NCBI GenBank assembly: GCA_905221605.1 | Contig: CAJNDS010001591.1 | Span: forward strand, 585,540-649,539 | DNA from: Symbiodinium natans | Taxonomy: Eukaryota; Sar; Dinophyceae; Suessiales; Symbiodiniaceae | DNA: 64,000 bases | Reading direction: 5' to 3' | Part shown: in pieces, positions 3,761-62,930 of the stretch | Position numbering within the stretch: the first letter of the stretch is position 1 | Layout of the letters: every line of letters begins with the position of its first letter | Notes under the pieces: generated by a model | The model's input: the letters and a program-made list of their open reading frames with translations, nothing else | Databases searched by the model: none | Told to the model about the DNA's origin: nothing | Position numbers and translations under genes: made by a program

Positions 3761-4012
3761 CTCCCTGCTTCACTGGGCCGGGCCTTCGCTGCCAGCGGCA
3801 TCAGGCAGCTCCACCAAGGGGGAGCTTCGAACGCTCAGATGGCGAGATGGGGAAACGGTGAGTTCGCAAAGGCGTAAAACCCAAACCCTAAACCCCAAAC
3901 CCTAAACCCTAAACAAGAAGCCCTAAACAAGAAACCCCCAAACCCTGAACCTTGAACGCAAAGGCATTTCCGCATGTCAAATGCGCATCGGATAGACCAC
4001 TGAGAGCCCCAC

Positions 4013-4160: not shown

Positions 4161-4245
4161 CTGTCGCACGTCAAAGGCATTCTCCAGGAAGCCCGTGATT
4201 CGAAGACCCAGCTCATCATCGATCCGATTCTGTATCAGATATTTC
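4161..4245 (-). CDS. Channel A exon: C-linker, RIDDELGLRITGFL
   Basis: Encodes KYLIQNRIDDELGLRITGFL and ENAFDVRQ without interruption. Gene B has a telomere-repeat intron in the middle of the same segment. The acceptor is TTCACCAG|GAAAT and the donor CGACAG|GCG (GC type), at the same position as in gene B. Confidence 0.75.
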
Positions 4246-4359
4246 CTGGTGAAGCTTGCTGCTCTGCGGGGGTTTACACGGGAGCAGACCCTGTCACTCA
4301 CCCAGCCAACGGCTTGCATGAGACCCTCTATCATATGTCCGGTGTTTGCTGATCCGCAC

Positions 4360-8812: not shown

Positions 8813-8965
8813 AGCCTCGCTTTCATGGTTGGGATAAGTACGTTGAAAACAGCAGATGTCTATTCCTTATTGGGTTTAGGTACCCTTAAGCATGTAAGCT
8901 TCTATTCCTTATTGGGTTTAAGTCAAAGTACCCTGAAAAATATGAAATGCTACCCAACTATGACA

Positions 8966-9067: not shown

Positions 9068-9070
9068 CTC

Positions 9071-9181: not shown

Positions 9182-9183
9182 GT

Positions 9184-11073: not shown

Positions 11074-11399
11074 CTGAGCACGGGCGGGAGAGTGAGAAAG
11101 CCGAATTGAGGGGCCCGAAGTGCATGCCGATAGCCTACAAAGGACGCTTCCATATTCTAACTTTAATTTAACTCACAAATGAATAATAACAGTCACAATA
11201 CTACTAAACTCACAGTAATAAGAATACTAAGAATATGTAGCTTGTTTGGGAATTAACTAGTACACATAGCAATCATAACAAAACATTGTAGTAACATTCA
11301 ATGTAATAATAAGTAATTATGGTAATTATCTGTCACTTGCTTGGTTTGTTGGAGGAGATTTTGGTTGCAGTCTGTTTTCACGGTGTTTAGGGTTTAGGG

Positions 11400-11619
11400 T
11401 ACGGGGGGAAACCGAAGGGGGACGAGAAACCGAACAGTCAACCCCAACAGAAGCCCTTGATTTCCCTGGATCAACCACACAACAAACCCAAACCACAGGG
11501 CACTCACCTTTTACTACCAGGCACATGGCCCAGTCTTGAGCCAAAAAAGATTTCCGGGTTTATTAACCCTTTCAACTTCCAACACTAACTCTTTTTACAA
11601 TACCAGTTGCAGCTCCGCA
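11400..11619 (-). repeat. 3' LTR of the element
   Basis: Second copy of the 220-bp repeat, read by eye as identical to 19841-20060. It is preceded on the minus strand by the polypurine tract and followed by TAGGG of a short TTTAGGG run. The spliced-leader-like 12-mer is at 11535-11546. Confidence 0.9.
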
Positions 11620-11627
11620 CTCCCCCT
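11620..11627 (-). promoter_or_regulatory. Polypurine tract
   Basis: The minus strand reads AGGGGGAG directly before the TG start of the 3' LTR, the place and composition expected of the plus-strand primer of an LTR retroelement. Confidence 0.75.
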
Positions 11628-11988
11628 GTCCTAGGATTTCCTAGGACACATTGGAGATGCAGATCTTTGGCCAAAAACTGCCATTAGGGCAGTAGCCTGC
11701 TGCTTGACATGCACAATATGGTTTTACGTCTACCAGGACGAAATTATAGCACATTGGCTAAATCCACTAACCATAGAGAATCTTTTCACCATGATCCTCT
11801 CATCACCGAAGACTCCTTGGCCTTCTTCACCACAAACCGTGGTCTTCGCTACGCGAAAAGCTACTGACTTCTACTATCAGGGATTTCCATACCCTTAATA
11901 GTAACCACCACATTTGTCAGCACATTGGCTGTTCCAGCGCACCTGTCTCCAGAAAGAGAAAAACCATCCCTTCATCCATACCATCCAA

Positions 11989-14900: not shown

Positions 14901-16449
14901 AACCACCGTCCAACTTCTTCGCATCATCACCACGGAGATCATTGCTCCCACCTTCTCCTTCTTTTTGGTCAGTCTCCTCGCCAGAAATTTGTACTGCTCC
15001 TTCCGGCGCCGTCTCCTGTCCAGCCACTTCATGCCCAGGAAGAACTTGAGCGCTTTCAGGGACATTCACCTGTCCAGCAACACCTTGCCCAGGTAAAACC
15101 TCATCCGTGGAGCCCACCGCCAGCGAACCAACCATAACTGAGCCATCCCTTGCTCTTTTTTGAGACTGTTCAGCTCGACGAGAAGGTTGTGATAGCGAAA
15201 AAACTTGAGAAGTCACTTCTTGGCGGGTCTCCCCCCGCGACGCTTTGTCGCGTTCTTTGCCAAGGAGAACCGATTTTTTCTGCCCGTCATTGGGGCCGGA
15301 AGAACCACCCATCGGAACATTGCCACGAATCGCAGTTCTCTGTAAATCCCTTTCTTGCAAAAGGATTTCCCGCATGCGGTGCACAGCATTGGTCTCTTCC
15401 TCGCTTGAATCGCTTGAGGAAGCGGCATAAGAAACCAAAGCCTCCGCCTGATCATCATCGTCCACCACATCTGCCCACGCTCTGCTGAACCGATACGACA
15501 ACCCACCACGAGGCTTCAGTTCCAGTGGTTTTGGTTTCTCCACCACTTCCGCCGGTTGCGCTCGTCGCTGTGAGCGAGAGCGTGGCACCTGTCGCACCTG
15601 TTTTTTGTCCAGCAAGGGCCTTCCCCTTTTCACAGGGTTTGATCTTGACCGATACTTTTTTGTTGGTGGATTCACCGGTGGCATTCCAACTCCCACCAAC
15701 TTCAGCTTCTGTACGCACAGCGGAGACCTCTGCGCAAGCGTCCAAGCGTCACGGTACTTGACCTTATCAAAAAGCTCCCGATAGGAGCCTCTCGGCATCG
15801 TTTTTGCACCGGAGCCTTCAGCTTCCCGCACCTGAGTGAGGGTTCGCACCGCCGCTCTTCCAGTCCCTTTGTTCCCAGAAGATTGTTGTACCCGTACAGA
15901 TGCATCAGAAGGAACTGCCTTTTCCGGTCCTCCCGGTCGATATCGGACCTCACCCACCAATTGCAGAATTTTGCATGCGGTCACCTTGTTGATCCCTTTG
16001 TCAACCAAATCTTCCACAAAGATGAACTCTTGCAAGTCCGACACATTGGTCACACCAAGGGTAATCATCACCTCACTTACATGAGGGGTATACACCCACA
16101 GGTGTTGGTTGCGAGCCATCCAATTTTCAATTGGCTCCTCTGGATTGTGAAGCTGAGTGCTAGTAGATGCAGCCACCGAATTCTTTTGTTCATCAGCCTC
16201 TTCTTCATCCAGAGTACCCTTCTCACCATCTTTTTGTGACACATTGGTCATCTGCAGCGCTTTTGGTGCTGAGGAGGACGAAGATTCTGCTCCCCCACTT
16301 ACCGGTGGTTGAAAAGCGTTCCTGTCGGGAATCTCCAATCCCTTTGCCCTTTGAAAGGACACATGGTTTGCCACATTCACCAAATGCTTCAACTGGGCCA
16401 GCCGGTCCTCAGACATCTCTTCGTGAGAATACTTGCAGCCAAATCGCAC
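11989..16449 (-). CDS. Element ORF2: multi CCCH-finger protein, about 1486 aa
   Basis: Second element ORF, -1 frame relative to ORF1. The called start is a GTG; the frame is open further up, to 16527, and that extension completes a perfect C-x8-C-x5-C-x3-H finger with the first residues here, so translation probably enters by frameshift or splicing rather than at this start. Contents: a conserved region at about 110-265; basic SR/RK-rich stretch 265-305; acidic Ser-rich linkers; an unfamiliar globular region at about 590-780 (DWVMRRGLTDRSIWPAMAY); and three clustered CCCH fingers at about 1075-1095, 1107-1126 and 1133-1152, followed by Arg/Pro- and Lys-rich tails ending NNRKKK. I see no RT (no YxDD), no integrase HHCC/DDE, no RNase H and no protease. 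A second, broken copy of residues about 136-264 at 24.4 kb differs mostly at silent sites, which supports real coding. Confidence 0.75.
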   Translation of the reverse strand: MRFGCKYSHEEMSEDRLAQLKHLVNVANHVSFQRAKGLEIPDRNAFQPPVSGGAESSSSSAPKALQMTNVSQKDGEKGTLDEEEADEQKNSVAASTSTQLHNPEEPIENWMARNQHLWVYTPHVSEVMITLGVTNVSDLQEFIFVEDLVDKGINKVTACKILQLVGEVRYRPGGPEKAVPSDASVRVQQSSGNKGTGRAAVRTLTQVREAEGSGAKTMPRGSYRELFDKVKYRDAWTLAQRSPLCVQKLKLVGVGMPPVNPPTKKYRSRSNPVKRGRPLLDKKQVRQVPRSRSQRRAQPAEVVEKPKPLELKPRGGLSYRFSRAWADVVDDDDQAEALVSYAASSSDSSEEETNAVHRMREILLQERDLQRTAIRGNVPMGGSSGPNDGQKKSVLLGKERDKASRGETRQEVTSQVFSLSQPSRRAEQSQKRARDGSVMVGSLAVGSTDEVLPGQGVAGQVNVPESAQVLPGHEVAGQETAPEGAVQISGEETDQKEGEGGSNDLRGDDAKKLDGGSVRSDLQQLLVKGLLNRIYWKVAVGKLPVGQRDCQKGSNKMDRNLVISMSSEGASEQDENLALEDDADQSMGDGAMVVLVYDPRTLIQSPTTDWVMRRGLTDRSIWPAMAYTAQRICAEMVQVDELNAQLNTGRLLFERRDQGYYCDLHHSFHDNPCLPVVGNYPLSVMGALLSPGLEKEFRDTGKFGTAMEAIAYDWSRSPGMEVHVELMARVANLVAPFLRLGGQGTVVNSEFLWQHGRDQMMEFLQAATCADQLEVLWRRMDDDADEEVDPTGMVLEIPDQQDAVLDQGNNESLIPIEDAGGETLGDTGRDGKAPEVSPEEETSSGSSRLAGTRIFLWSVYSRVASNFSTQDRTTGKIFDSTKGYPGEGPNNGDNPSSKRNLPWISEDYLDEVVSKKMERSSDMDGLEGSVPGSEGSLEKVEVENVTASKILMDLWKKGYRAGYRRLCRLNVSGCKVGTMKRPIKRVQKIGTRKALMKKFNVFGSSQRGSGAGGKPIMKVVGPRPGFPAVLQASNTDSTWGEGSSSQAHGNVHVEQNRPMDRFEAERLEKRKKGFCYWFSKGKDRCKFGEDCKFIHSEDDVVLHSYWCKYYVAGRLCFAGKTCAFSHDATGVRCIQFAQSGKCRYGDKCVFEHGDPLNEQRPRSPRTPPRDGPRRSSGAKGGEEEISPEQFDDGEEYSMTYDDDTKMSELLMEAISFLSNGKTDLARAEADPLFKLLKFKGDADQMDREWVSWTDDMLSVLELHEVVKSYEVSLEEVEEWVNDLRIWFERANMEEEKDPKRGKKRSLERESSKDIPAEKEVVETSETEVIVKEEAKKVKKKRKAAVIEDPYTLLVPKPKKMPATIEKSGSSTNAAVSAGEKASRMRTKSIVGGKAKKKEKSQSPKKGEVVVVKGPEEKDRPPDVDAQASAAVSAELGQSCQAIEDAKREGLVSSIQRGVQDPVLAVSDLEYILLQLHLKIANNRKKK

Positions 16450-16505
16450 ACGACATCTCCCTTTGAGATAGTAGTCGAAACAGCAATGGTGGAACCCCGC
16501 GTCCC

Positions 16506-16527
16506 TTAGTGCCCTTCCAATGCCATG
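16506..16527 (-). promoter_or_regulatory. ORF1/ORF2 overlap, candidate -1 frameshift window
   Basis: The ORF2 frame opens just after a TGA at 16528-16530 and ORF1 stops at a TAA at 16506-16508, leaving 19 nt of overlap plus the stop. The ORF2 frame is -1 to ORF1, as in many gag-pol pairs. I see no classical X XXY YYZ heptamer in the overlap, so an unusual shift site, splicing or a one-base lesion are all open. Confidence 0.4.
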
Positions 16528-19500
16528 TCATCGTCGTGGAGATACCTGCACGCAGTCCCATATTTACAACCACTTTGATTGTAATACAGACACAGCCGTT
16601 TCTTCGTTTCACCCAGCGTAGGCTCACCTTTTGATGTCCCTTTGCCATAGTTGTACTGGGCACGGAAGGCCGAATCCTCCCGCTCCTGCTGCACCTCATC
16701 CACTGTACCTTCATCAGTTGGAGGGCCACCGATGTCCCCATCCTCGTCACCAGTTTTTTGGCTGTTCTTTGGCTCAGTTGGCTCTCCTTCAGGCCACCCT
16801 TCACCGTAGCGACGATGTTCATAGGAACACCCATCTCCATTTCGACACCTCCCTTGATTGAAGAACTTGCACAGCTTACTGTATCCAGGTGACACAGTCT
16901 TCGGAGTCGTGTGAGCCTTTGTGTACTGATCGGGATCCATATAGGCTTCTATTGGCCTGTTTTCCCTCTTACTCATCTCCTCGACTGCACCATCAAGCTC
17001 TTGCAGAAATCGTTTGGTGTCCAACCACAGCTCGTTCCAAAGCTCATCTTTCCCTTTGCTCAGCAACATTGCCACCGCTTCACCCACGACTGGTCCACTA
17101 AATCTTCTTTTCTTGCGTGCCAGTTCGTAGAGCGCGTCGTGGTACTGCTTCCGGGAAAAAGTGGTTGTTTCTTCCACACCGACACGTTCTTTCTCCTCAG
17201 GCTTCCAATCATCACTTAGCAAGATGTTGTATGCGCTCCGAGCCTCATTATTCAGGAATGCATGATCTGCAATACACTCCACAATCACGTCCATTGAACG
17301 ACTCAGCAACATCCCAGTGATTTTGCCGACATAGTCATTATCAATTGTTTCATCTTCCAGGAGATTTCGACAGATCTTCTCTCCATAGAGCTGTTTCTGC
17401 TCAGCCTCCTCTTGTTCCTTAGAGGATGCTTTTGACTCGGCAAACCACTCACGAGACTGCTGTTCCTCCGACTTCCAGTCCCATTGACCATCGGAACCTT
17501 TGTACCATTGACCAGTCTGCCATGAGCCTGTCCACCATGTACCCCAGCCGCTGTCCTTCCATTTGCGCAGCTTTGAAGAGGAATCCTCCTCGTCCTCTTC
17601 CAAAACCAGAAAGGTGTCCAAGATTATGGTACCATCATCTTCCACTCGTTTCACTGTTCCATTGACAGTATCACCAAATTGGAACTGATGTACATTGTTC
17701 CCTTCTGCAGGAACCAATACATTTATATCACCATAGTCCAAAAAGGCTCCATACCCATTGATGCAGCGCACTAGACCAATGATCTTATCTCCCTCTTGAT
17801 AGCAATGTGTCCCAGGTGATTCCAAGGCTCCCGCTCGGGGCACTTTCTTTGCATGCTCTTCAGAAACCATCTCTGTATCATCGGCTCCTGGCGCATCCTT
17901 TGTCTTCACCTTTGGGTCACACTGCTCGTCCTGTTCCACGAGTCCCACAAGCTCATCTTTTTTGTGCTCCTGGATTTCAGGACCTCCCTTTTTCTCTGCC
18001 AAAGGCTTTGCCTCATCTGCTTCAGTTCGCTCGGTGTCGACTTCCGGTGAACTTCCAGACGGCAACGCTTCTTCCTTCATGGGAGTGGACCCATCATTGG
18101 TGTCCTTTGTCACACCTTCTGCAGCAGGCAAATTTTCTTCCACTGCAGGGCGATTGAGTTGATCATCCACGGCAGGCACACTTTCTTCCACCGCAGGCTC
18201 CTTTGGTTCCATGGTTTCCAAAGGAGAATTGCCACCATCATTGACCACAGCTGCCTCATTGGCTCCGGTGTAGCCCTTGTCATTTCGTTCCTCGCGGCTA
18301 ACTTCAGGTTGAACCAGTGCGTCCACCTGTGAACCTCCATCATCAGCTGCTGCGGAGACCTGCGCCCCATTGTTGCAGTCGCCCGTGGAACGTAACACCA
18401 TATGCACCTCAACCCGTGCCTCCTTCGCACTCCAGGTACTATCTGGCGCATCGACCCGCGCTTCATTGGCGCTCCAGGCCTCATCTTTCCGATCAGCCGT
18501 GTCTCCAGCAGTTTCAGAAGTTTCCTTTTCCCTTTGAATGGCAGAATTCTCGGCACCAAACGAAGAGACCTCCTCAGTCGTAATGCACAACTTTTTCTCT
18601 TCGTCATCCAAATCTCCAGGGCCATCTTCCTGAACGACAGGCACCACATCCACCACTCGCTCTTCTGCAGCCGACACAATTCCGATCTCCACATTGGGCA
18701 TTTTTTCTTCTGGACCCACCGATTCCACCGCTGCCACACCCTCAGAAAGCGTCTCCATTTCTTCCCGATCCAGATGTTGAGCTTCAGCGATGTCTGCTCG
18801 GTTTCCAGAAATCCCCTCTTCATCAGGAGAACCCGAGGTCGGGGCGTCACCACCACCCCTAGGACCGCTATCCCCGATAGTAGAGGAAAAATCCTTTTCA
18901 CTTACACTATTTACACCGCTGTTCACACTTTCCATGCTACCCTGCTGTGCCCTAGAAGACTCAGTAGGTGACGGAGACGAGGTAGCACCCAGCGCTGGCT
19001 CATCTTCCACAGGGACAATGCCCATTCCAACACCTGGCCCCTCGCTATTTCCAGCCATTCCAGTCTTCTTAGGCAACACCCATTGGGTATCTCCAGTGTC
19101 CAAGCAGTAAAGATATTCTCTCCCATCCTCGTGAAAATGGCGTTCCCATGTCTTCCCATCGCAGTCGATGATTGGAAGGTCAGCAGCTTGAGACGCTTTG
19201 CCTCCACCACCAGCGTATAAGTCTTCATCTGACTCTTGCTGTATTCTTGCTGCCTCCAATTCCAGGATTTCTCCTTCGCTCATCACCATAGCAACAGGAA
19301 CGACTCCTTCTGCGTCCCCAACGACGAGGATACTGCTTTTTGTCGCAGCAACAGGCGCAGTTTCTTCCGCTTCACCTGTCAACAGATCACCACTTTCAGC
19401 CGCGAAACTCACTTTGTTGCGAGCTCGCTTGGAAACAGGGATAACATCCCCAACCAGTTCTGTCTGGCACCCTTGCTCCACCATCTTTGACGTAGAGGAG

Positions 19501-19775
19501 CTTGTTGCTGGCGCTCCCGTTGATTCAGCAGATTCCGCAGCCCGAAGAAGATGCCCATGTTTGCTTAGAAGGCGCAGCAAAACTGCTTCCATCTGGTCTT
19601 CCAGTCCTTCCACCACCGGCTTCTCTTCGCCACGCATACCACCAACATCAACCAGAGCTTCCTCATTGGAAACAACTTTTTCACCCGTTGCAGACCTTTT
19701 GACACCACTTTCACCTTGGTCGCCCACATTGGAGCTCGATGATGTCGCACCAGTCCGTAACCAGTTGGTCGCCAT
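16506..19775 (-). CDS. Element ORF1: WW, S1-like and CCCH-finger protein, 1089 aa
   Basis: First ORF of the element, starting 45 nt inside the primer-binding site at an ATG in good context (G at -3, G at +4). Visible parts in order: an acidic, low-complexity N-terminus; a WW domain at about 207-237 (W210, W232, then VLP); a long Glu/Asp/Ser-rich region to about 650; an S1-like RNA-binding fold at about 660-722 (GLVRCINGYGAFLDYG); a Trp/Gly-rich patch at 739-778 (GWGTWWTGSWQTGQW); an alpha-helical stretch; and two CCCH fingers of spacing C-x7-C-x5-C-x3-H (C969-H986 and C1062-H1080). No gag CCHC knuckle, capsid or protease motif is evident. The RNA-binding modules suggest it packages or binds RNA in place of a normal Gag; this is inference. 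It ends 9 residues after the last finger, and the next ORF continues in the -1 frame with another finger. Confidence 0.8.
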   Translation of the reverse strand: MATNWLRTGATSSSSNVGDQGESGVKRSATGEKVVSNEEALVDVGGMRGEEKPVVEGLEDQMEAVLLRLLSKHGHLLRAAESAESTGAPATSSSTSKMVEQGCQTELVGDVIPVSKRARNKVSFAAESGDLLTGEAEETAPVAATKSSILVVGDAEGVVPVAMVMSEGEILELEAARIQQESDEDLYAGGGGKASQAADLPIIDCDGKTWERHFHEDGREYLYCLDTGDTQWVLPKKTGMAGNSEGPGVGMGIVPVEDEPALGATSSPSPTESSRAQQGSMESVNSGVNSVSEKDFSSTIGDSGPRGGGDAPTSGSPDEEGISGNRADIAEAQHLDREEMETLSEGVAAVESVGPEEKMPNVEIGIVSAAEERVVDVVPVVQEDGPGDLDDEEKKLCITTEEVSSFGAENSAIQREKETSETAGDTADRKDEAWSANEARVDAPDSTWSAKEARVEVHMVLRSTGDCNNGAQVSAAADDGGSQVDALVQPEVSREERNDKGYTGANEAAVVNDGGNSPLETMEPKEPAVEESVPAVDDQLNRPAVEENLPAAEGVTKDTNDGSTPMKEEALPSGSSPEVDTERTEADEAKPLAEKKGGPEIQEHKKDELVGLVEQDEQCDPKVKTKDAPGADDTEMVSEEHAKKVPRAGALESPGTHCYQEGDKIIGLVRCINGYGAFLDYGDINVLVPAEGNNVHQFQFGDTVNGTVKRVEDDGTIILDTFLVLEEDEEDSSSKLRKWKDSGWGTWWTGSWQTGQWYKGSDGQWDWKSEEQQSREWFAESKASSKEQEEAEQKQLYGEKICRNLLEDETIDNDYVGKITGMLLSRSMDVIVECIADHAFLNNEARSAYNILLSDDWKPEEKERVGVEETTTFSRKQYHDALYELARKKRRFSGPVVGEAVAMLLSKGKDELWNELWLDTKRFLQELDGAVEEMSKRENRPIEAYMDPDQYTKAHTTPKTVSPGYSKLCKFFNQGRCRNGDGCSYEHRRYGEGWPEGEPTEPKNSQKTGDEDGDIGGPPTDEGTVDEVQQEREDSAFRAQYNYGKGTSKGEPTLGETKKRLCLYYNQSGCKYGTACRYLHDDDMALEGH

Positions 19776-19820
19776 GGCTTCAAACTTCCACCCTAAAGCC
19801 GAAACACAAACCGCAGGGAA

Positions 19821-19840
19821 CCTAATTTGGGCTCATAACC
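19821..19840 (-). promoter_or_regulatory. Primer-binding site, initiator Met tRNA anticodon arm
   Basis: Immediately inside the 5' LTR the minus strand reads GGTTATGAGCCC. Its complement, GGGCTCATAACC, is the anticodon stem-loop of a methionine tRNA (CAT anticodon flanked by CT and AA). Known copia and some other Pseudoviridae elements prime with a tRNA-iMet 5' half cut in this arm rather than with the tRNA 3' end. The position and match support a half-tRNA-primed LTR element. Confidence 0.8.
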
Positions 19841-20060
19841 TACGGGGGGAAACCGAAGGGGGACGAGAAACCGAACAGTCAACCCCAACAGAAGCCCTTG
19901 ATTTCCCTGGATCAACCACACAACAAACCCAAACCACAGGGCACTCACCTTTTACTACCAGGCACATGGCCCAGTCTTGAGCCAAAAAAGATTTCCGGGT
20001 TTATTAACCCTTTCAACTTCCAACACTAACTCTTTTTACAATACCAGTTGCAGCTCCGCA
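19841..20060 (-). repeat. 5' LTR of the element
   Basis: 220-bp long terminal repeat, upstream copy relative to the minus-strand ORFs. It should carry the promoter. On the minus strand it contains the 12-mer TTTTGGCTCAAG (19976-19987), the 3' end of the dinoflagellate spliced leader, followed 9 nt later by an ATG and then by AAAAG|GTGAGTG, a strong splice-donor match. It directly abuts a long TTTAGGG array on its outer side. Confidence 0.9.
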
Positions 20061-20240
20061 TAGGGTTTAGGGTTTAGGGTTTAGGGTTTAGGGTTTAGGG
20101 TTTAGGGTTTAGGGTTTAGGGTTTAGGGTTTAGGGTTTAGGGTTTAGGGTTTAGGGTTTAGGGTTTAGGGTTTAGGGTTTAGGGTTTAGGGTTTAGGGTT
20201 TAGGGTTTAGGGTTTAGGGTTTAGGGTTTAGGGTTTAGGG
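20061..20240. repeat. TTTAGGG array at the LTR element insertion site
   Basis: About 26 perfect units beginning at the outer edge of the 5' LTR. The short run 11380-11399 is the other side of the same original array. Confidence 0.95.
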
Positions 20241-20259
20241 TCTCAGGCCAGGCAGCCAG

Positions 20260-21072: not shown

Positions 21073-21461
21073 CTGGGATAGGGCGGTCGGCAGGTCAGCA
21101 TGTTTTTCGCAGAACAAGTACCAGTAGTCATTCGACCTTTCTTCAGTCACTCTTCGGGTGCTGCATTCGCGGCCGTACATGGCCCAAGAGGCACTGGCCG
21201 TCCCTCGCCTGAACCCTGCCGACTCAACGCTCCACATCTCTATGCCGCCCGCAGCCAACAATGTAGCCACTTGCGCTTCAAGGGAGACACGCAAGGCGAT
21301 CACGAAGCCAAGTGTTCACAGTTTTTTCTCCCGGAGAAGGCCGAGGCGGTCGACGCTCAGGGTTCTGTCACAGATGTGCGAACTTCGCAGGACAGCATGG
21401 CTTCCCTAAACCCTAAACCCGAAACCCTAAACCCTAAACCCTTCAGATTCATGGGCCAAGC

Positions 21462-24829: not shown

Positions 24830-25693
24830 AGGGTAATTGTCTGTAGCTTTTGCCCGCGTCCTTGACGGCTGGCTGTTCGGTTGTCCTTGCGGTCGAAAAG
24901 CGCCGTCCACCTCGGAAACACATGGGGCGTTTCCGAAACCCTAAACCCCAAACCCTAAACCCTAAAACCTAAACCCTGAACCCTGCACCATGAACCGTTT
25001 GCTTGGGGCTCAGTTCAGAAGGATTAGTGTGTTTTGGGGCACGTAAACCTGGGGTTCCCCCATTTGGGGACATACCCACATGGCACCGACCTCCAAGGGG
25101 TTCCAACAACCAGGGGCACCCTAAGGCCCTAAGCACTAAGCCCTAAACCCTAAACCCTAAACCCTAAACCCTATGTTGAGCGGCACGTAGAGAAGGGGCA
25201 ACCCCTATTTCGGGAAATGGACCCACATGGTTCCTGAACCCAAACTTTTCGGACGTAGGAGCTGATGTTGGGCCCGCTTCCCTGAGGGTTTGGGGTTTAG
25301 GGTTTAGGGTCTTAAGGTTTGGGGTTCAGGGCCTTAGGGTTTAGGGTTTAGGGTTTAGGGTTCAGGGCCTTAGGGTTTAGGCCTTAGGGTTTAGGGTTTA
25401 GGGATAAGGCTAAGCAAAGCCAAGTTGCTGGATTCTCAGTCGGAAAGCCAAATCTTGATTTTTGCTCCTGAGGCCAGGTGGCACTCAAGAACATCTAAAC
25501 CTTAAACCCTAAACCCTGAACCCTAAACCCTAAACCCTCAACCCTAAACACCCTAAATCCTAAACCCTGCTTCAGGAAACTCATCAACCTTAAACCCCAT
25601 GCAAGCCAAAGATTCATATTCGGAATGCCATGAGCTCGGAGAAGCACGTTTCGCTCCTGTGTGGGCGTTATCATGGATTCCCTTACGATCCTC

Positions 25694-27970: not shown

Positions 27971-29799
27971 TTCGCCTCGGCTTCCTGCCGAGAAGCGTCT
28001 GGAACAAGCAGACCCGGATCGGGCCTCCTTCCCCCTAACCCAACCCTTCCCCCCATACCAAATTTTTTGACGCCCACCCCCACCCCCCCCCCCCCCCCCC
28101 CCACCCCCCCCCACCCCCCTCCCCACCCCCCCCCCCCCCCCCCCCCCCCCCCACCCCAACCCCCCCCCCACCCCCCCCTCTCCCTTCCTCCCTTTTTTTT
28201 TGCAAACCCTCTTTCCTTTTCCTGTCCTGGGGCCGGCCCGGCTGCCGAGGCGGCGTGCGCAAGCGTTTACAATTACATAGGGGAATTCGATTAAGTGTCC
28301 CTTCTAGGGGTCCCTCCTTCAAAACGCTATTAGATGAACCCGAAAACGTTTTACGGTTCATATACCCTTGCTAGGGGTTTAGGGTTTAGGGTTTCGGGGG
28401 TTCTCGTTCATATACCCTTGTAAGGGCTTAGAGTAGAATCGAGTACATGACCCCAATGACGTTTCCGCACTTCCCGCGGAAAACCCGACCACGAGACACA
28501 TAATCAAACAACATCGAAGCCCAAAGCCCTGAACACTGCAACACACACACACACACATCGCATCTCCGACTCCGATCCTGCTTGCGTATGTATGTATGCC
28601 TGTGTACATGTATATGTCCCATGTCTATGCCACTATGTCTGTGTCATGTACATGTACATGCATATGTGTATGTATATGTAGGGCGGGGGGTGGTCCCAAA
28701 AAAGGGTTTGCTGTATTTGTTTAACAAAAGGTTTATCGCATTTTGTGGGGCAGAAAGGGGGGCGAAGGGGTCCCTTCTATGGGGAAATGCCCGTTTTCGT
28801 GGACATCCTGCCAAGCAGCACATACGCGAATCTCCACTCCGCAGCAAATTTCGGGCACCTGGTACTGGTCAGCATGGCGCGACATGCCACCACCCCAGAA
28901 ACGCGCCAGCAAAGCCAAACCCCCCGCAGAGGCGCAGAACCAGGAATCTAACCTAACCACAACTAAAAGCCCCGATGATATGGAGTCAAACCAAACCACA
29001 ACTCAAACCCCTAGGACTGCGTAGGACATGCAGCTTTGTCGGAGACGCAGTACCAGCGTTCGAGTATCTTCCGTGTCCGACCTGAATCATCCGACGCCAT
29101 TGACATCCGTGCAGTCAAGCTGGTCGCGAGTTCCGGCTCGCCCTGGCCAGCTCTATGTGATGCGCAACATGTTCTTGGGAATGTAGGGGCAATGTACGGG
29201 CAAAAAGCGCGGGGGGGGGGGGGGGGGGGGGTACAGGGTTCAGAGAGGCACCTTGCCAAAGTCGTGTCCATGACGGCCCAAGGCTCAGGAGCATGGGGTT
29301 TAGGGTTTAGGGTTTAGGGTTTAGGGTTTAGGGTTTAGGGTTTAGGGCTTAGGGTTTAGGGTTTAGGGCTAGGGAGCATGCAGCATGTCCCAGCCTGAAA
29401 CTTGCGAGTCAAGTCGTCCAGCTCCGCCTTGTGGCGCTCCTGAGTGCTTCAAAGCAGCTGCCGGATGAGCCCGAAACAATGAACCCTAAATCCTAAACCC
29501 TAAACCCTAAACCCTACACCCCAAACCCTAAACCCTTAAGCCTGAACCCTAACTCCTAAACCTTCAAAAACTGCTCCCGCCCTGCTTCTGCGAGGAGTGT
29601 GTGGAGGTCCCAGAAGGTCATGTCCTGCCGATACGAGCAGCATCAGCAAGCTTTGTGAATCCATGCAAAGAACCTGATCTCACATATTCTCTGCCATGTA
29701 TACATGATCATGATCAGATTTATACCTGTGTGTACTTAGACAAATACATATCTAGGAGAGGCTGTGCTACAGCCTCTCTTGATCTATATCTACATACCA

Positions 29800-30028: not shown

Positions 30029-32986
30029 CAGGTATACATCTTGGAAAGCTCTTGCGCGTTCTTGTGTGGCTTTTCTACTCCCCTGCAGGCGCGGCGACAG
30101 AATGGTGATGCAGCACAATGATGCCTTCCCCCCCCCTTTCCACTATGCTTTATTGCACCCCCCCCCCCCCCACCCCTCACCAAAAAAAAAAACCATGAAA
30201 TAAAATACAAAGACTCCCTACACTGTACGGCTCTAACGAACCCTAAGAACCGATAGAACTGGAGCAAGGTTTTAGAAGGGGCCCTACAGGGTAGGGCTTG
30301 CAGAAAAGATGGGGATAAGAGGTACCTTATTGGGTTCCTTATTGTAAGGGATCCCACCATTTGGTGTTTTTGTTAAGGGTTCTGTATTTTCGTAAGCCCC
30401 CACATAAGTAGCACGAGCGCCATTTCTGAGTGTGCCGGACAAGCGCCTGGCGAAGGTAAGAAATAGGCTACAGCCGCCGCGGCAACGTTGAAAGACCAGC
30501 TTCCTGATTTAAAGACTTGAAAGCACGGCCATGACTTCAGCGTAATCCACTGCTGCCCTTGCACCTTTCCCCCCAAGTGCAGGGAAAGTTCATTCGAGCA
30601 AAATGCTCAAGGCCGACAGGGGCTACGAGGTGCTCGTGTGAAGCCGTCTCTAGAACCAAGCCACCGTCTGAAGTCGGTTCAGGAATAGTTGAACTATTGT
30701 GCGCGAAACGCTGATCCCGAAACCCTAAACCACTACACCCCCAAACCCCGAACCCCTATAGGATTTAAGGTCTTCGAAAACTCGAACCAATTCAAGCCGC
30801 ACCGTGCTCCCTTAGGCCCGAAAAGGCTCCCGCCTGCGACGCAGGCATTGAAGCGTTGTAAAACATCGCAAGCATCACCAGAGCATCAGCAAGGATGTGT
30901 GAGGAGAGGGTGTGTCAATTCTTGCCGTCTTCTGGTTTGCTGGCATCTTGCCAGCCTTACTGTTCCTTGATTGATACGAGTGCTGCACATGTAGTTGATT
31001 CATGTGCACTGTCTCAGATCGAGAGATGCCTGCCCAACTTGGAAGAAGAATGTGAGCGATGCTGCTTCTTGGAAGCCTCTCGCTGAAGATTGCAAATGCT
31101 GCATTGTTCAAGAGGTACAGCTTAGCTGCGGAAAATGCGGTAAGGAATCACAAGAGACGCGAAGGGAAGTGCCCTGTAGTAGGCTGCTCAAGATTGCCCC
31201 CGAAAATGCGCGGGAGCTTGTAGCAAGCCTTTGCAGGCCTCCGGAATGTCCTACACTGAAGGACGGAGCACAACACGGAACGAATTTCGCAGACAGGGGG
31301 ATCCAAGCCCGGAACCCCCACGGGTTGCGCGATTGAATGGGGACGGTTGCAAAAACCATTACATCAGGGTGTGGGTACGGAGAGGTCCAAGCTTGTGGCT
31401 GTCTGTTCCAACGAATACCTTGCTACATGCCAGCACTCGCATACTCTTCCATGCTGGCCACACCTCTGCAATCTGCACTTCTTTTGGACAGGCCCTAAGC
31501 ACGCACCCCAAGCTTTGATAGTGCGCATCACTTGCTCCTACATGCCAAGCACACTTGGCGCAGACTTCAGACGGTCTGAACACAGAATTCAAGAAATTTC
31601 GACTGGAATACATTGTCGTCCAAGCTGATGCTACTTGTCGGGGACGATTTTCGAGAAGTCACCATCCATCGAGATGAAGCGCCGGAAGAAACCTCAGTGT
31701 TGAGAGCTCCCGGCCCACTGATGTAGGCCCTAAACCCTCAACCCTGGCACCCGTGCTTTTTGCAGAGTTTTCGGGGAGTGCGCTGTGTGCTCCAGCTTAA
31801 TGGAAACTTTAATGGAAAGCTCTTACGGTTTTGGGTTTAGGGCTGAGGGGTTAGGAGCAAAACAAAATCTCGAGCGATTGCGCCTCGAAGCTACATCTCT
31901 AGTGAGGCAGGTCCGTGAAGCCAAGACGTGCACTGACCTTCCAAAACCCCTTAATTCAGGTACTCTAATTCAAAATAAGGATCCTTAGTATACATGAGGG
32001 TATATTCCTTAATTAAGGGGTTTTGGAAGATCTGGGTAATACACAAACTGACTCCCGGGAGCGTCTTCCTTGATCGAAGCTGGCACGTCGATGATGATGA
32101 GTGTCATGATCGGTTTCCTGTAGTCTCAGGGATCGCTCGCGCGGTATGCCAGGCTGGGTTCTATCGTGCTCAGGAAGTTCACCAGGGTCTGAAAAGGCAA
32201 ACAACCTGCCTTCAACCATCCTCGACCTCAACATGTCCCAGGATCCCCTAAAGCCTAAATTTAAACCCAAAGCCCTAAACCCGAAACCCCCAAACCTCTG
32301 AAGTACCATCTTCATAGACACGCCGCCACTTAAAACCCTCAGCCCTACGCCTTGCTAGGCCCGGCCGTGCAAGACTGCGGACAGGGAAGCGCGCGAAAAG
32401 CTCACAAAAAAGCCGAAAGGCGTTTAGCTTTCGACTGTTCGCATCCTGGAGCACTCTTCGACTGGTTTGAGAGCTTCCGCAGGTTTCGACTCTCCGCGTC
32501 CTACTTGTCCATCTGTGCACGTCTTTTCAATGCTTGCGGTCATGAAGTTCCTTGCGTGAAGCAGCAATCTTAAGAGTGCCTGTTTTTGCCGATTTTGGGG
32601 GCAGGGGAAGCCTAACCCTAAACCCTAAACCCCCCTAGTAGCACGTCGAAGAGACCGCCCTGGGCCCTCCACCTTAGCGCAACCCAAAAGGGCCCCCCGC
32701 TGTGAACTGCCGCCTCAGTGGGCTCTAAGACTTCCAGCCCGCCTTCTGGTAAGAATTTTCAGAACCTATGACTCTTCATTCATACACATGTAAAAGAATA
32801 TATATATTTACATATATATATACATATATATATATACACATATATATATGAAAAGAATATGAACATAAGCGCAAATAACCAGAGAATACAGCAAGATGGC
32901 AATGCGTTGACCTCCTTTGGCAACTTCTGCACTCCCAGCACCCTCAACCCATCTAACCCTAAACACCCTAATACCCTGAACCCATA

Positions 32987-34087: not shown

Positions 34088-35269
34088 ACGTACTCCCCTA
34101 GTCTCCCTAAACCCTAAACCCTAAACCCTAAACCCTAAAAAAAGGTACCCTTGGGGATACGAGTAGAACCCTGCATGTCATGCTAATGCAGGCAAGTTGC
34201 AAGGCTTGCACGTATTTCTGGGCAAAGTCCTGCACATGTTGAGGGTGTAGGGTTTGGGGTCTAGGGTTCGGGGGTTTCGGGGTTTGGGGGTTTGGAGTTT
34301 GGGGTTTAGGGTTTAAGGGTTTAGGGTTTAGGGTTTAGGGTTTAGGGTTTATTGTTTAGGCCAAGGCAGCCATGAGCCCCCTTTTCTTCGTCCACCACTC
34401 AGGCCTGTGCCAGGCTCTGACCGTTGGAGGACCGCCGAATGCTGGCAGCAAACTTTCCGACCTTCCGGACATCGATCGCCCCCCCAGGGCCCAAGAACTG
34501 TCTGTGTGACAAGAGAATCCTTGAGCTGGACCACACCCCATGCTTGGGATCACAAAGCCCTGAGGTGCGAAAGGTAAAGGAGGGAAGGGTGAGGCGCCAA
34601 ACATGATGAGCGAACCCTGTAAGCAAGCAAACTACTCTTGTGTAGCAGATTGGGTATCGCTCCACTCTTTGCAAACGTCCGCGACGCCTCGAGCATGACT
34701 AGGCTGGAGACGTCCTCAGGCAGTTCAAGCAAAAATGACATCACGCGGATTGTGCAGAAATGCCAGCACAGCCCAACGAAGCAGCCCAGGGTCCTCCGTA
34801 TGGAGTTCACCTGCGTGAGGATGCAGAGTTCAAGGAACGGAGGCTCGGGGGGGGGGGGGGGGTTGGCGATACAAGGAATGCGAGAATGCTGCGAACCCTA
34901 AACCCTAAACCCTAAACCCTAAACCCTAAACCCTGTGAACCACTTCCTATGCTTCCGTCCGGCCTAAGTGAAGCCAGGGGATCCACAAGCTCATCTCCAC
35001 TAGCCTCATTGAGAGGCATGAGAGGGCGCTTCATCTTCATCCTTCTCAAGATGCCTGTTCCTGTTCCCTGTGTGGGATCCTCATCTGTTGATAGCTAGCA
35101 GCTAGCACGTATATCCAAGAAGCTTTCAGCAGGCTTCAAGACACCATTTCCCAGAGAGCCCAATACTCCTTAATTAAGGAATATACCTTAAGTTATAAAG
35201 GGATCCTGAATGGGATTTAAGGAATATTCCGTAATTAAGGGGTATTGGGCTCTTTGGGTTCAGAGGTCG

Positions 35270-38155: not shown

Positions 38156-38209
38156 CTGGCGCAGCTTGTAGGCCTCCTCGAGGAAACCGGTGATGCGCAG
38201 GCAAAGATC
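38156..38209 (-). CDS. Channel B exon: DLCLRITGFLEEAYKLRQ
   Basis: Acceptor CCAACGAG|GATC and donor CGCCAG|GCCCG (GC type, the same position as gene A). Confidence 0.7.
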
Positions 38210-38505
38210 CTCGTTGGTTAGGGTCTAGGGTTTAGGTTTTAGGGTTTAGGGTTTAGGGTTTAGGGTTTAGGGTTTAGGGTTTAGGGTTTAGGGTTTAGGG
38301 TTTAGGGTTTAGGGTTTAGGGTTTAGGGTTTAGGGTTTAGGGTTTAGGGTTTAGGGTTTAGGGTGTCGGGTTTAGGGTTTAGGGTTTAGGGTTTACGGTT
38401 TAGGGTTTACGGTTTAGGGTTTAGGGCTTAGGGCTTAGGGTTTCGGATTTCGGGTTTAGGGTGCAGGGTGCAGGGTGTGTGTGTAGGGTTTAGGGGGCAA
38501 AGGTC
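38210..38505 (-). other. 296-nt telomere-repeat intron gained in B but not A
   Basis: The intron body is almost entirely TTTAGGG repeats (+ strand). CAACGAGGAYCTTTGCC occurs at both ends (38200-38216 and 38496-38512, 16 of 17 identical), spanning the donor and acceptor. The paralogous segment of gene A (4161-4245) has no intron here. Confidence 0.75.
38218..38495. repeat. TTTAGGG array filling a channel B intron
   Basis: About 38 units with scattered variants, spanning nearly the whole 296-nt intron. Confidence 0.95.
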
Positions 38506-38536
38506 CTCGTTGATGTGGTGCTGGCTCAGGTACTTC
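38506..38536 (-). CDS. Channel B exon: KYLSQHHINE
   Basis: Acceptor CCTGCAG|GAAG, donor CAACGAG|GACC (GA type). It is continuous with the next segment in gene A (IQNRIDDELGLRITG). Confidence 0.7.
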
Positions 38537-38750
38537 CTGCAGGGGACACGCACACTGGGGGACTCCGCTAATTACTCTCACCACCACTTCCCCGCCCCCA
38601 ACAACCCGAAACCCCATACCCTAAACCCCATACCCTAAACCCTAAAACCTAAACCCTAAACCCCAAACCCTAAACCCCATACCCTAAACCCCAAACCCTA
38701 AACCCTAAACCCCAAACCCTAAGCCCGGAGCCCCCTAAACATGTCCCGGC

Positions 38751-43468: not shown

Positions 43469-43985
43469 CTCAGCGACAATAAGTACCAAATACTTGGGGT
43501 TTAGGATATACCCTCCTTTTGTTGGCTACCTGGACAATTGCGTTTCACAGCAAAGCAGAGCTGAGCGGGGCGGCGCTGGCGTCGGTCTGCGACAACACGG
43601 CCGAGGGGTAGGAGTCAACACTGTCCACGTACCAATCCAACACCACGTTCCTTGTAGGGTTGAGGGCTTAGGGCTTTTTCAGGGGTATGAGGAGGGACCT
43701 CTAAGTAGCCCCCAAATAGCCCCTAAAGAACCCCTAAGGTCCCTTATAAGGGTCCCTCCTTTAGTCCCTTGAGCTTTGGGCTTACGGCTAGGCAACTCAC
43801 AAGCGTGAGACACAACAAAGGCCAGCGGCGAAAAGTCGCAAAGTAACCAGCCTGCACAGGGCATGTTTCGCGGCAAGCCCTGCTGTAAGCCCTCAACCCC
43901 CCCCTAAACCCTAAACCCAAAACCCTAAACCCTCGCCCCTAAACCCCAATCCATAAGCAGGATCTCAAGCTGGTACACTCCCAAC

Positions 43986-44056
43986 CTCTCAGGTAGTACA
44001 CCCTAAACCTCCTTAAACCCCCCCAAACCCTAAACCCTAAACCTTAAGCCCCCAAC
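43986..44056 (-). other. 71-nt telomere-repeat intron with 21-bp flanking repeat
   Basis: GT-AG intron whose body is degenerate TTTAGGG on the sense strand. A 21-bp sequence is repeated perfectly at 43980-44000 and 44051-44071. The repeat contains TGAGAG|GTTGGG, so one copy supplies the donor and the other the acceptor. Gene A has an intron at the same place. Confidence 0.75.
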
Positions 44057-44160
44057 CTCTCAGGTAGTACAGCGCAATCTGCTTGGTCTCCTTGATGGCG
44101 TTGCCCCGCATGTAGAAGCCGGTCCGAAAGTTGACCACAATGTCCATGTTCCAAAAGATC
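44057..44160 (-). CDS. Channel B exon: S2 helix
   Basis: Encodes RIFWNMDIVVNFRTGFYMRG, then NAIKETKQIALYYLR. It is a clear S2 signature. The acceptor AAACAG|GATC is formed at the edge of a telomere-type array; the donor is TGAGAG|GTTGGG. Confidence 0.8.
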
Positions 44161-47508: not shown

Positions 47509-47867
47509 TCCCGGGCTTCATGAAGCCAGGCGCATCCCGCCTTAAAGCCGACAGAGCCTGTTTTTCTGGTCCAAGCCGCTCCATCCTCGGGGCAAAAACG
47601 GTCTCATCCTCCTCGTCCTCTTCCAGGCTTGGCAACTTCTGCTTCCTTTGCCAAGGCTGCTAAGCCCTAAGCTCTAAGCCCTAAGCCCTAAACCCTAAAC
47701 CCTAAGCCCTAAACCCTAAACCCTAAACCCTAAACCATAAGGAAAGGAAACCCTAAATGCATCATGGCTGGCACCAATGCCGCGAAACCACGTTCTGGGC
47801 ACAGCTAAGGCCGCCCATCTCACTGAGCTACGCCATGTAACCTAGGCCTGGAACACACAGTTTCTTG

Positions 47868-56865: not shown

Positions 56866-56920
56866 CTGAAGGCACCGCCCAGGTCACCGAGCCGCCAGCG
56901 CGCTTGTCCTCTCACAAATC
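56866..56920 (-). CDS. Golvesin-like exon 2
   Basis: Encodes AGGSVTWAVPS, donor CTTCAG|GCACC. It joins as VPSGYTPYPNRASNVPV with the next exon. Confidence 0.45.
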
Positions 56921-57189
56921 GTAGGGTTTAGGGTTTAGGGTTTAGGGTTTAGGTTTTAGGGTTTAGGGTTTAGGGTTTACGGTTTACCTCAGGACTTAGG
57001 GTTTAGGGTTTTAGGGGTTTAAGGGTTTAGGGCTTAGGGGTTTAGAGGCTTAAGGGTTGAGGGGTTGGGGGTTATTAGCGGTTTAGGTTCAGTGGTTTCG
57101 GGTTTCGGGGCTTACAAAACCCCATTCTGTGTGAGGTTTTCAGGGTTTTTAGGGGTGTTGGGGGCTGTTAGGGCCTTTGGGCTTTGAGG

Positions 57190-57482: not shown

Positions 57483-59195
57483 CCCTCTCTACCATATATA
57501 TTTAAACCTTAATTGTATTTTCAAAATTTGGCCGCTTTATTTTCAGAATTTGGCCGCTTTATTTTCAGAATTTGGCCGCTTTATTTTCAGAATTTGGCCG
57601 CTTTATTTTCAGAATGAGCCAAAATCAAGCCAAAGGCTAATTGAATTTCAGAATTTGGCCGCTTTATTTTCAGAATTTGGCCGCTTTATTTTCAGAATTT
57701 GGCCGCTTTATTTTCAGAATTTGGCCGCTTTATTTTCAGAATTTGGCCGCTTTATTTTCAGAATTTGGCCGCTTTATTTTCAGAATTTGGCCGCTTTATT
57801 TTCAGAATTTGGCCGTTTTATTTTCAGAATTTGGCCGCTTTATTTTCAGAATTTGGCCGCTTTATTTTCAGAATTTGGCCGCTTTATTTTCAGAATTTGG
57901 CCGCTTTATTTTCAGAATTTGGCCGTTTTTGGCTTTCTCAATGTAGTGGGATTCTCTGGGTGGGTGGGTGCTATATCCGAGCCGTAAATAAAGCTTAACC
58001 ATAAAGCTGCTCGACCCGGAGTGCTGAACCCTAAACCCTAAACCCTAAACCCTAAACCCTCTCTACCATATATATTTAAACCTTAATTGTATTTTCAAAA
58101 TTTGGCCGCTTTATTTTCAGAATTTGGCCGCTTTATTTTCAGAATTTGGCCGCTTTATTTTCAGAATTTGGCCGCTTTATTTTCAGAATTTGGCCGCTTT
58201 ATTTTCAGAATCAGGCCAAAGGCTAATTGAATTTCAGAATTTGGCCGTTTTTATTTTCAGAATTTGGCCGCTTTATTTTCAGAATTTGGCCGCTTTATTT
58301 TCAGAATTTGGCCGCTTTATTTTCAGAATTTGGCCGCTTTATTTTCAGAATTTGGCCGCTTTATTTTCAGAATTTGGCCGCTTTATTTTCAGAATTTGGC
58401 CGCTTTATTTTCAGAATTTGGCCGTTTTATTTTCAGAATTTGGCCGCTTTATTTTCAGAATTTGGCCGCTTTATTTTCAGAATTTTGCCGCTATATTTTC
58501 AGAATTTGGCCGCTTTATTTTCAGAATTTCGCCGCTTTATTTTCAGAATGAGCCAAAATCAGGCCAACGGCTAATTGAATTTCAGAATTTGGCCGCTTTA
58601 TTTTCAGAATTTGGCCGCTTTATTTTCAGAATTTGGCCGCTTTATTTTCACAATTTGGCCGCTTCAGAAATTGGCCGCTTTATTTTCAGAATTTGGCCGC
58701 TTTATTTTCAGAATTTGGCCGCTTTATTTTCAGAATGAGCCAAAATCAGGCCAAAGGCTAATTGAATTTCAGAATTTGGCCGTTTTATTTTCAGAATTTG
58801 GCCGCTTTATTTTCAGAAATTGGCCGCTTTATTTTCAGAATTTGGCCGCTTCAGAATTTGGCCGCTTTATTTTCAGAATTTGGCCGCTTTATTTTCAGAA
58901 TTTGGCCGCTTTATTTTCAGAATTTGGCCGCTTTATTTTCAGAATTTGGCCGCTTTATTTTCAGAATTTGGCCGCTTCAGAATTTGGCCGTTTTATTTTC
59001 AGAATTTGGCCGCTTTATTTTCAGAATTTGGCCGCTTTATTTTCAGAATTTGGCCGCTTTATTTTCAGAATTTGGCCGCTTTATTTTGGCCGTTTTTGGC
59101 TTTCTCAATGTAGTGGGATTCTCTGGGTGGGTGGGTGTTATATCCGAGCCGTAAATAAAGCTTAACCATAAAGCTGCTCGACCCGGAGTGCTGAA
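57483..59195. repeat. 22-bp minisatellite, two duplicated blocks
   Basis: Tandem unit TTTGGCCGCTTTATTTTCAG plus AA, about 17 copies at 57530-57925 and about 40 at 58098-59090. Both blocks begin with the same 50-bp left flank and end with the same 110-bp right flank (one base difference seen), with CCCTAAA repeats between them. A separate insert (GAGCCAAAATCAGGCCAAAG) interrupts the arrays four times. All frames stay open because the unit has no stop, so the long FRIWPLYFQNL-type ORFs are not genes. Confidence 0.9.
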
Positions 59196-59964: not shown

Positions 59965-60068
59965 CCGCATGTGTCCGGTCCCAGACATGAGGGCACGCTC
60001 GCAGCGCAGGCCTGTGTAGAGGCCACAGAAGCCAGCGCACCCAGAGATCTCGGCATCCTCAGTTTGCG
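59965..60068 (-). CDS. Cys-containing exon
   Basis: Open frame with DAEISGCAGFCGLYTGLRCE, of extracellular character, between the leader exon and the golvesin-like exons. Confidence 0.35.
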
Positions 60069-60109
60069 AACCCTAAACTCTAAACCCTAAACCCTAAACT
60101 TGTGCGAGC

Positions 60110-61334: not shown

Positions 61335-62930
61335 CTTCTTCTTCTTCTTCTTCTTCTTCCTCTTCCTCTTCTTCTTCTTATTTTTCTTCTTCTTCTTCTT
61401 CTTCTTTTTCTTCTTCTTCGTCCGATCACCAGGGAGTTTCGCAAAACGGGTCTTTATTATCATGACACCCCAGAAAGAAGAGAACAGACCTTGCGAGGAC
61501 CCCCAAAAAAAGGCGCAAATGGTCAGAAACTGTTGAAACTAACCACCATTACAGCCAAGCCGCTGGCACAGATACCTTGGCCCACGAGCGTGAAGTTGAA
61601 GACCTTGCGCTGAGATAGTACGCAACCACGACACACACCAAACACCAGCCCCAGCTCAAAAGGGCCCTTTATAGGGTTGATCATGGGATTATAGCAGGAT
61701 ACCCTAAAACCCCTGCAAAAAGGCTCTTTATAGGGTTGGTTATGGGGATTCTAGGGCCTAGTAGCCCATCCTGGCAGCCAAACTGTCGGAACTACGCCAT
61801 CCTTCGCACAGCGGGAGGCTCAAATCCAGGGTTTAGAGTTTTGCGGCTTTCGGGTTTAGGGCTTAGGGTTTAGGTTTTAGGGTTTAGGGTTTAGGGTTTA
61901 GGGTTTAGGGTTTAGGGTTTGGGGACTTGAAGACCCTTCCTGGAAGCCGACACCCACGAGATGCACCTGTCCGGTGGTGGTCGTCGTGCTGGTCCTTGGG
62001 CCCATCACCAAGCAAGAGCTGCAAGTGCTGCCCTTTGCTTAAGGGTTTATGGGTTTAGGGTTTAGGGTTTAGGGTTTAGGGTTTAGGACCAGGGTTTAGG
62101 GGGCACCATTCCGTTTTTGGATCGGTGGAATCTGGAAGCGGCCCTTCTTCAAAGCCCAGTGGCGTGGGCGCGTTGGTCACCAAACCTGCCGCTTAGTACT
62201 GCATTGGCATAGCCGCAGCATTTAGTCGGGGGTTTTCCATACTAAGGGACCCGTCATGTAGACCCCGAAATAGTGGGATCCCCTTATTGTAAGGACCCCA
62301 ATAATTATTGTAAACCCCCAGTTCATGAAACGAATATCAGGTAGCTGCAAGGCGAGCATGGAGCCCTTCAATGTTACGTAGCTTGGATGTTGAATTCCTG
62401 TGAACCCTCCAGAATCCCTAACTTCCGAGCCACCTGTCTTCTCGTAGGCGTCGACGTTTGTCACATCTCGCAGGGGAGGGCGGACTTCGCATGTAAAAGA
62501 CCGTGCCCGGAAGAACTGTTTCACACCCAAGACACAGTGACTTGGTTATTAAAACGGCGTCATGCAAAGGACCGCCGAACCCTAAACCCTAAGCTTCAAG
62601 CTGCCGCTTCAAACGCAGGATGAAGGCACGACCCCCCACTGCCACAAAAAACTCTCAAAAAACCAAAAAAAGGGGGGGGGGGAGCGCGAACCCATGCTTG
62701 CATTCACCCACAAGTTGAAGAAGGGAGCTGAACATCGACGAAAAAAAATGCAACCTTCAAGATGTCCCCAGAGGCCTGTGTCTGTAGAAAGGAGCTTGCT
62801 CAGCAGCTGGCAGGTGCCCACCTACGGCAGGCAAGGAGGGCAGTGTAGGTGAACCCTAAACCCTAAACCCTAAACCCTAAACCCTAAACCCTAAACCCTA
62901 AACCCTACGTTGGAGAAAGCAGCGCACGCC
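60200..62930. other. Spacer with short exon candidates
   Basis: A 31-bp repeat with GTTTGTTGGTGCAGAG, three copies at 60220-60305, the TTC tract, GGGGTACC-type palindromes at 60945-61050 and 62225-62325, and weak minus-strand open segments (60665-60740; 61950-62020 with a CAG|GTGCATC donor). Confidence 0.5.
61304..61420. repeat. TTC trinucleotide repeat
   Basis: About 39 TTC or TCC units. It gives false poly-Phe/Ser/Leu and poly-Lys/Arg ORFs. Confidence 0.95.

Follow-up and report, generated by a model that had tools for sequence, protein, structure and literature searches.

A candidate intron composed of telomere repeats and bordered by a 17-bp duplication in a putative CNG-like channel gene of a dinoflagellate

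Intron gain by staggered-break repair has been described in Daphnia, where direct repeats of 4-12 bp are found at the opposite ends of the new introns (PMC4202315), and is counted as one of seven mechanisms of intron gain in a review that also names tandem genomic duplication and warns that a comparison with conserved introns is needed (PMC3443670). The string "telomer" is absent from the available parts of both texts. Telomere repeats are known as inserted DNA from mammals, in which a target duplication accompanies 6 of 130 interstitial telomeric insertions in rodents and 4 of 25 in primates (PMC2246262). The introners of Amoebophrya carry direct repeats of 3-5 nt and inverted repeats of 8-20 nt, unlike the intron described here (PMC7789003). 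A survey that included Symbiodinium microadriaticum found direct repeats close to the splice sites of many kinds of introns (PMC11782384), and GC and GA donors together account for 25-74% of the boundaries in Symbiodiniaceae (review, PMC11453091). Among the titles and abstract openings of the literature on intron gain, introners and dinoflagellate telomere repeats, a body of work outside which most subscription journals fall, there was no report of telomere-derived introns. The origin of new introns has long been an open question, and cases that unite the inserted sequence, the footprint of its insertion and an intron-free relative are rare. All three are seen at the locus in gene B described below, and the abundance of telomere-repeat arrays in the host genome makes the hypothesis testable by counting.

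The window (the whole stretch of DNA analysed, 64,000 nt, C1591:585540-649539) belongs to an assembly of 759,417,921 bases in 2543 contigs. Exact matches to the dinoflagellate spliced-leader pattern were obtained 104 times in forward and 101 times in reverse orientation, with 0 in the reversed control, and the host genome is, on account of these matches, identified as a dinoflagellate nuclear genome. An initial alternative, a coccidian such as Eimeria, which has telomere-like repeats, was discarded on this ground. The four-unit telomere word gave 853,942 plus 852,709 matches in the genome (~2.2 per kb) and 342 times in the window (~5.3 per kb), which is ~2.4-fold richer than the genome average. 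TTTAGGG arrays made up 17.8% of the window (136 arrays) and 21.2% of a neighbouring 200-kb sample of the same contig (559 arrays, 5000 N included), while telomere repeats accounted for 19.5% of a 10-kb piece of contig C1 and 3.2% of a 10-kb piece of contig C21. On the sampled contig, arrays occur at ~2-3 per kb and differ in length. The window also contains a satellite of TATTTTCAGAATTTGGCCGCTT-type units that is open in several frames (57516-59087) and, on the minus strand at 6500-9600, exon-like pieces that appear PPR-like by eye, between which lie short inserts that resemble introners and contain GGGTTCTTAAG... and TATGAACC... motifs (by eye).

Gene B, located on the minus strand, carries a 17-bp direct repeat whose copies are identical at 16 of 17 positions and enclose an array of 278 bp (39.9 copies according to TRF) that is separated from them by 1 and 0 bp (flank-match score 14.5) and whose degenerate units cluster near the high-coordinate edge (Table 1). 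Along the transcript, exon sequence ending in ATCAACGAGGACCTTTGCC gives way to a telomere-repeat stretch of 279 bases, one more than the array itself, and then to CAACGAGGATCTTTGCCTGCGCATC. When the array and one repeat copy are removed, the conserved C-linker stretch of a CNG-like channel becomes continuous and the reading frame is restored exactly; the sole mismatch between the copies is a synonymous GAC/GAT difference. Its paralogue, gene A, contains KYLIQNRIDDELGLRITGFL without interruption (4245-4161, coordinates by eye). The anatomy agrees with an earlier note on this DNA, which had described a 16/17 repeat at both edges of an intron of about 38 TTTAGGG units and the same codons as continuous in gene A. 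Further downstream, the coding sequence of gene B probably continues past a nearby stop (RQARV-stop), because a CAG/GC donor shared with gene A (38156/38155) and additional exon-like pieces conserved with gene A can be recognised by eye.

Table 1. Positions of the features in the window (slashes in splice-site sequences mark exon-intron boundaries).
Feature	Position	Strand	Basis
3' (transcript sense) 17-bp copy, CAACGAGGATCTTTGCC	38200..38216	-	sequence comparison
5' (transcript sense) 17-bp copy, CAACGAGGACCTTTGCC	38496..38512	-	sequence comparison
TTTAGGG array (CCCTAAA in the sense strand of gene B)	38218..38495	+	repeat detection
Predicted B-specific intron, 296 nt, GA-AG	38210..38505	-	only offset of 18 with an AG acceptor
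Upstream part of the interrupted exon (...KYLSQHHINE)	38506..38536	-	sequence
Downstream part of the interrupted exon (DLCLRITGFLEEAYKLRQ), ending at a CAG/GC donor also found in gene A	38156..38209	-	donor by eye
Neighbouring intron at a position common to A and B (CTGAG/GC...GCAG/G), TTTAGGG array in B only	38537..38750	-	direct repeats of score 6 at most
Gene A counterpart: shared intron 4246-4359 (GT-AG, without array) and uninterrupted exon 4161-4245	4161..4359	-	sequence
Second telomeric insertion in gene B: 21-bp perfect repeat (43980-44000, 44051-44071), short degenerate TTTAGGG block	43980..44071	-	sequence
Telomeric insertion with 15-bp perfect repeat (28356-28370/28406-28420) in a dispersed repeat	28356..28420	+	empty-site search
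Array 3877-3951 with 9-bp repeat CGCAAAGGC near both edges, weak case	3865..3965	.	sequence

The joined gene B protein (ITSLTTQLNKASEERKHQFRQLRKYLSQHHINEDLCLRITGFLEEAYKLRQ) was 65% identical to that of gene A over 51 residues without gaps. A whole-genome search (E <= 0.001) yielded eight matches, corresponding to two pieces each of genes A and B, single matches on C2332 and C21, and a pair on C2449. The joined codons of gene B aligned without gaps to gene A and to the homologues on C2332, C21 and C2449, and the position of the B-specific intron was uninterrupted in five of these five other family members found. The C2332 homologue, a 306-aa open frame, matched cyclic-nucleotide-gated channels of solved structure, 7w5z being the best (E 5.9e-11), and the stretch in question is also ungapped in the printed alignment of CNGA1 to this homologue. 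Short channel peptides had no match at the cut-offs in PDB and Pfam, and Pfam returned nothing above cut-off for the channel homologues, so that it is the match of the C2332 homologue in PDB that gives the family its name; gene B is treated as a putative CNG-like channel gene. Because none of the five other members found has the intron, the comparison supports its gain in gene B rather than its loss elsewhere. An ancestral intron that was lost from the five relatives, with a direct repeat arising by chance or gene conversion, is scarcely credible: it has the general possibility of intron loss in its favour, nothing more, and needs losses in all five relatives found as well as a chance 16/17 match at both edges of the array. 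We also regard it as improbable that gene B is disrupted, the array staying unspliced and the gene being a pseudogene or truncated. The non-canonical GA-AG boundary and the crowding of the gene by many arrays would fit such a state; the conservation of the flanking codons with gene A, the exact restoration of the frame and a copy difference limited to one synonymous position speak against it.

The neighbouring intron (QLR/K) is present in genes A and B, absent from the C2332, C21 and two C2449 homologues, and 114 nt long in gene A. Since it holds an array in gene B only, arrays enter old introns too; the 296-nt intron, in turn, is specific to gene B. Direct repeats at the QLR/K intron reached best scores of 6 in gene B and 6.5 in gene A, and this single position, as present in both genes, served as the conserved-intron background for direct repeats. 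Gene A has an apparent intron of its own, absent in gene B, that holds a short TTTAGGG array (21404-21442) without a close duplication at its edges, the best being 7 bp long at distances of 21 and 32 bp. Also within an inferred gene A intron lies an element (11400-20060) in which direct repeats of 220 bp, 100% identical to each other, form the two ends (11400-11619 and 19841-20060) around two long minus-strand open frames, which gave CCCH zinc-finger, Torus and MLLE matches and no reverse-transcriptase family among the Pfam matches with E <= 0.01. It is bordered by telomere units (11385-11400 and 20061-20241) and was perhaps inserted into an array.

All 18 cut offsets permitted by the 17-bp repeat remove 296 nt, and an AG acceptor is obtained with one of them only, GAG/GACC...CGAG/GATC, which places the predicted intron at 38505-38210 with a G after the AG. 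A G following the AG acceptor is usual for dinoflagellate introns. In its sequence, the predicted intron fits the dinoflagellate pattern of a GT, GC or GA donor and an AG acceptor followed by G. The CCCTAAA sense strand of the array offers the branch-point-like motif CTAAAC, and its intact units contain no AG/G of their own, so that the splice sites have to be supplied by the duplication. The claim of the earlier note that a duplicated AG/G gave both splice sites is supported by the unique solution within the repeat and not by the frequency of AGG in duplications, which was 10 of 16 repeats listed by hand compared with 6.95 expected (P 0.10, no significant enrichment); AGG enrichment was dropped as a sign of splice-site selection.

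The intron could alternatively stem from an introner that was inserted first and left the direct repeats as its target duplication, its body being later replaced or overgrown by telomere-like repeats. Dinoflagellates are rich in introners (PMC11453091), and an introner-like repeat with a TAAACCCTTTTAGGGTT core does carry an array in this genome. However, the repeats are parted from the array by nothing but telomere units and 0-1 bp, no inverted terminal repeat is seen in the outer 40 bases of the 296-nt intron (score 3, reached by 99% of shuffles), and the direct repeats of the duplication cases measure 9 to 21 bp, as against 3-5 nt in the available description of Amoebophrya introners (PMC7789003). 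An introner origin of the 296-nt intron was rejected for its lack of inverted termini, and the replacement scenario as a whole is judged to have little chance of being correct.

For the counting of direct repeats, the 30 bases on each side of the arrays were compared in 284 kb (264 kb of one contig and 20 kb from two others), and repeats located within 10 bp of both edges were recorded, with telomere-like and low-complexity repeats excluded. Direct repeats with a score >=9 bordered 14 of 707 array clusters, compared with expectations of 0.83 when flanks of the same strand were mismatched and of 1.25 when the windows were shifted at each locus. An unmasked random-interval control was dominated by satellites and gave as many as observed (14.4 expected); it was replaced by a version in which tandem repeats were masked in flanks and controls. 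With masking, 12 of 635 clusters were positive at a score >=9 (2.25 expected), 10 at >=10 (1.43 expected) and 7 at >=12 (0.57 expected), the masked control comprising 71 positives, or 69 distinct repeats, in 20,000 draws. When a score >=12 and gaps <=10 bp on both sides were required, one of 8484 mismatched flank pairs qualified (0.08 expected among 707 clusters). Among 106 other microsatellites, one had a direct repeat, and that one was a CA-rich artefact. The association of array and duplication recurs and is not a single coincidence. An excess of flanking repeats, named as a check in the earlier note, was found in the 284-kb sample, where a recognisable duplication accompanies only ~2% of the arrays; the note's further proposal of an insertion with target duplication gains support from this enrichment and from the empty sites of two other insertions described below.

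Among the perfect repeats in the 200-kb sample are those at array 99847-99874 (19 bp), 166096-166161 (18 bp), 60020-60100 (15 bp) and 31104-31155 (13 bp). A 20-bp repeat around 90760-91011 (by eye) was left out of the counts, since 15 bp of other sequence adjoin the array and the limit is 10 bp. The 21-bp case in gene B was likewise uncounted, as degenerate units part its left copy from the called array. This duplication covers the AG/GT donor of the preceding exon (donor by eye), so that splicing from the first donor would leave the message unchanged. A second insertion clearly inside an exon was not found among these cases, the others being situated at exon edges, in repeats or in unassigned sequence, and a Pfam search with seven peptides for further exon-interior cases gave no match.

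Empty sites were sought by joining the flanks of an array around one copy of the repeat. For the insertion with the 15-bp repeat (Table 1), this array-free query gave 36 matches, including the two halves of the locus itself, and all 34 of the 34 listed non-self matches (77-84% identity) extended over the junction, which lies at query position 60. In the 200-kb sample, a 13-bp repeat with two differences (score 8, below the threshold for counting) flanks the array at 56899-56945, and at least two other copies of the surrounding element lack the array (61482-61588 of the sample and 35148-35261 of the window), having a single 13-bp stretch and a further small difference nearby. Because the other copies are uninterrupted, the array and duplication at both loci are, by this comparison, insertions into pre-existing sequence. 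The empty site of the 38200-38512 insertion is seen at the protein level through the paralogues, and a genome search with the 99847-99874 insertion returned the locus itself and no other copy. In a scan within the sample, 27 of 702 array queries matched elsewhere across the junction, some of the matches being telomere-like or satellite; four of the 27 were examined and one was traced further. An introner-like dispersed repeat in the 200-kb sample carries an array at 25494-25555, where another copy (47725-47812) has the TAAACCCTTTTAGGGTT core, which suggests expansion of, or insertion at, a telomere-like seed. No duplication was visible at this array, so that more than one route may fill the genome with arrays.

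The register of clean array edges is non-random: 84 of 261 G-strand 3' ends lie after GGG (chi-square P ~2e-16), and of 289 clean 5' starts, 63 are at A and 61 at the first G. Such a bias suggests templated synthesis rather than random fragments, and mutation at particular positions of the unit can mimic it. The polarity of arrays (5' versus 3' thirds) was weak, 121 vs 87 of 248 arrays, and was set aside. It is conceivable, though on balance unlikely, that end joining captured random fragments of telomeric DNA and that telomerase synthesis was not involved. DNA capture at breaks is known, the mammalian study names it beside telomerase (PMC2246262), and the arrays are often degenerate; the non-random register of their ends is a suggestive counter-argument, subject to the same mimicry by mutation. 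Capture is a variant of the explanation by telomere-repeat addition that follows, is not exclusive with it and leads to the same intron.

The sequence anatomy, the absence of the intron from the five relatives found, the recurrence of duplications and the empty sites at two other loci are observed. They are probably best explained by the addition of telomere repeats at a staggered break in an exon, followed by filling-in of the ends, with the duplicated AGG giving both splice sites. A staggered break would have opened inside the gene B exon at CAACGAGGAYCTTTGCC, and one of its ends would have gained telomere repeats, most simply through telomerase extending a 3' end. Filling-in and joining of the single-stranded tails would then have produced the 17-bp duplication. 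Of the duplicated GAG/GA, the upstream copy would provide the donor and the downstream one the acceptor; the motif would be usable at both ends because dinoflagellate introns accept GA besides GT and GC donors. The pre-mRNA would shed the array and one copy, with CTAAAC within the array as the putative branch point, and the protein would stay unchanged. The break, the action of telomerase, the splicing and the branch point are what we infer from the sequence. A broader proposal, that in the dinoflagellate lineage the telomere-repeat repair of staggered breaks is a recurring genome-wide source of new introns, with telomerase supplying their body, is put forward tentatively, with somewhat more doubt than belief; the intron claim is carried by one exon-interior case. 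Equally tentative is a component of this proposal, namely that relaxed donors (AG/G followed by T, C or A) let an exon with AGG become an intron in one step. If true, these ideas would connect the birth of introns to the addition of telomere repeats at breaks that is known from mammals and would explain why permissive splice donors favour intron gain.

In tandem genomic duplication, a duplicated splice-site-like AGG(T) supplies donor and acceptor. The gene B locus resembles this process in that a duplicated AGG would give donor and acceptor, and differs from it in that the duplication is 17 bp long and its copies are parted by foreign (telomeric) sequence. With introners of dinoflagellates and Amoebophrya it shares an insertion that would become an intron, direct repeats at the boundaries and predicted non-canonical splice sites; introners, however, form repeated families with inverted repeats, whereas the insert in gene B consists of telomere units only and lacks inverted termini (PMC7789003, PMC9860276). 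The survey of direct repeats at splice sites likewise reports such repeats around both intron borders, and the available part of its text contains no telomere-repeat introns, "telomer" appearing in a reference only (PMC11782384). Mammalian interstitial telomeric sequences are similar as short arrays at formerly uninterrupted sites, a minority of them with target duplication; in the part of that text available, "intron" occurs once, in a reference, and "exon" never, whereas the array in gene B interrupts an exon (PMC2246262). As in Daphnia, a probable new intron is situated in coding sequence, and short direct repeats lie at its opposite ends, which are attributed to staggered breaks (PMC4202315, PMC3443670); the exon-copy repeats measure 4-12 bp there, compared with 17 bp and an insert of telomere repeats here (PMC4202315). 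Break-repair intron gain with flanking repeats was thus already known from Daphnia, and the new element is the use of telomere repeats as the inserted DNA.
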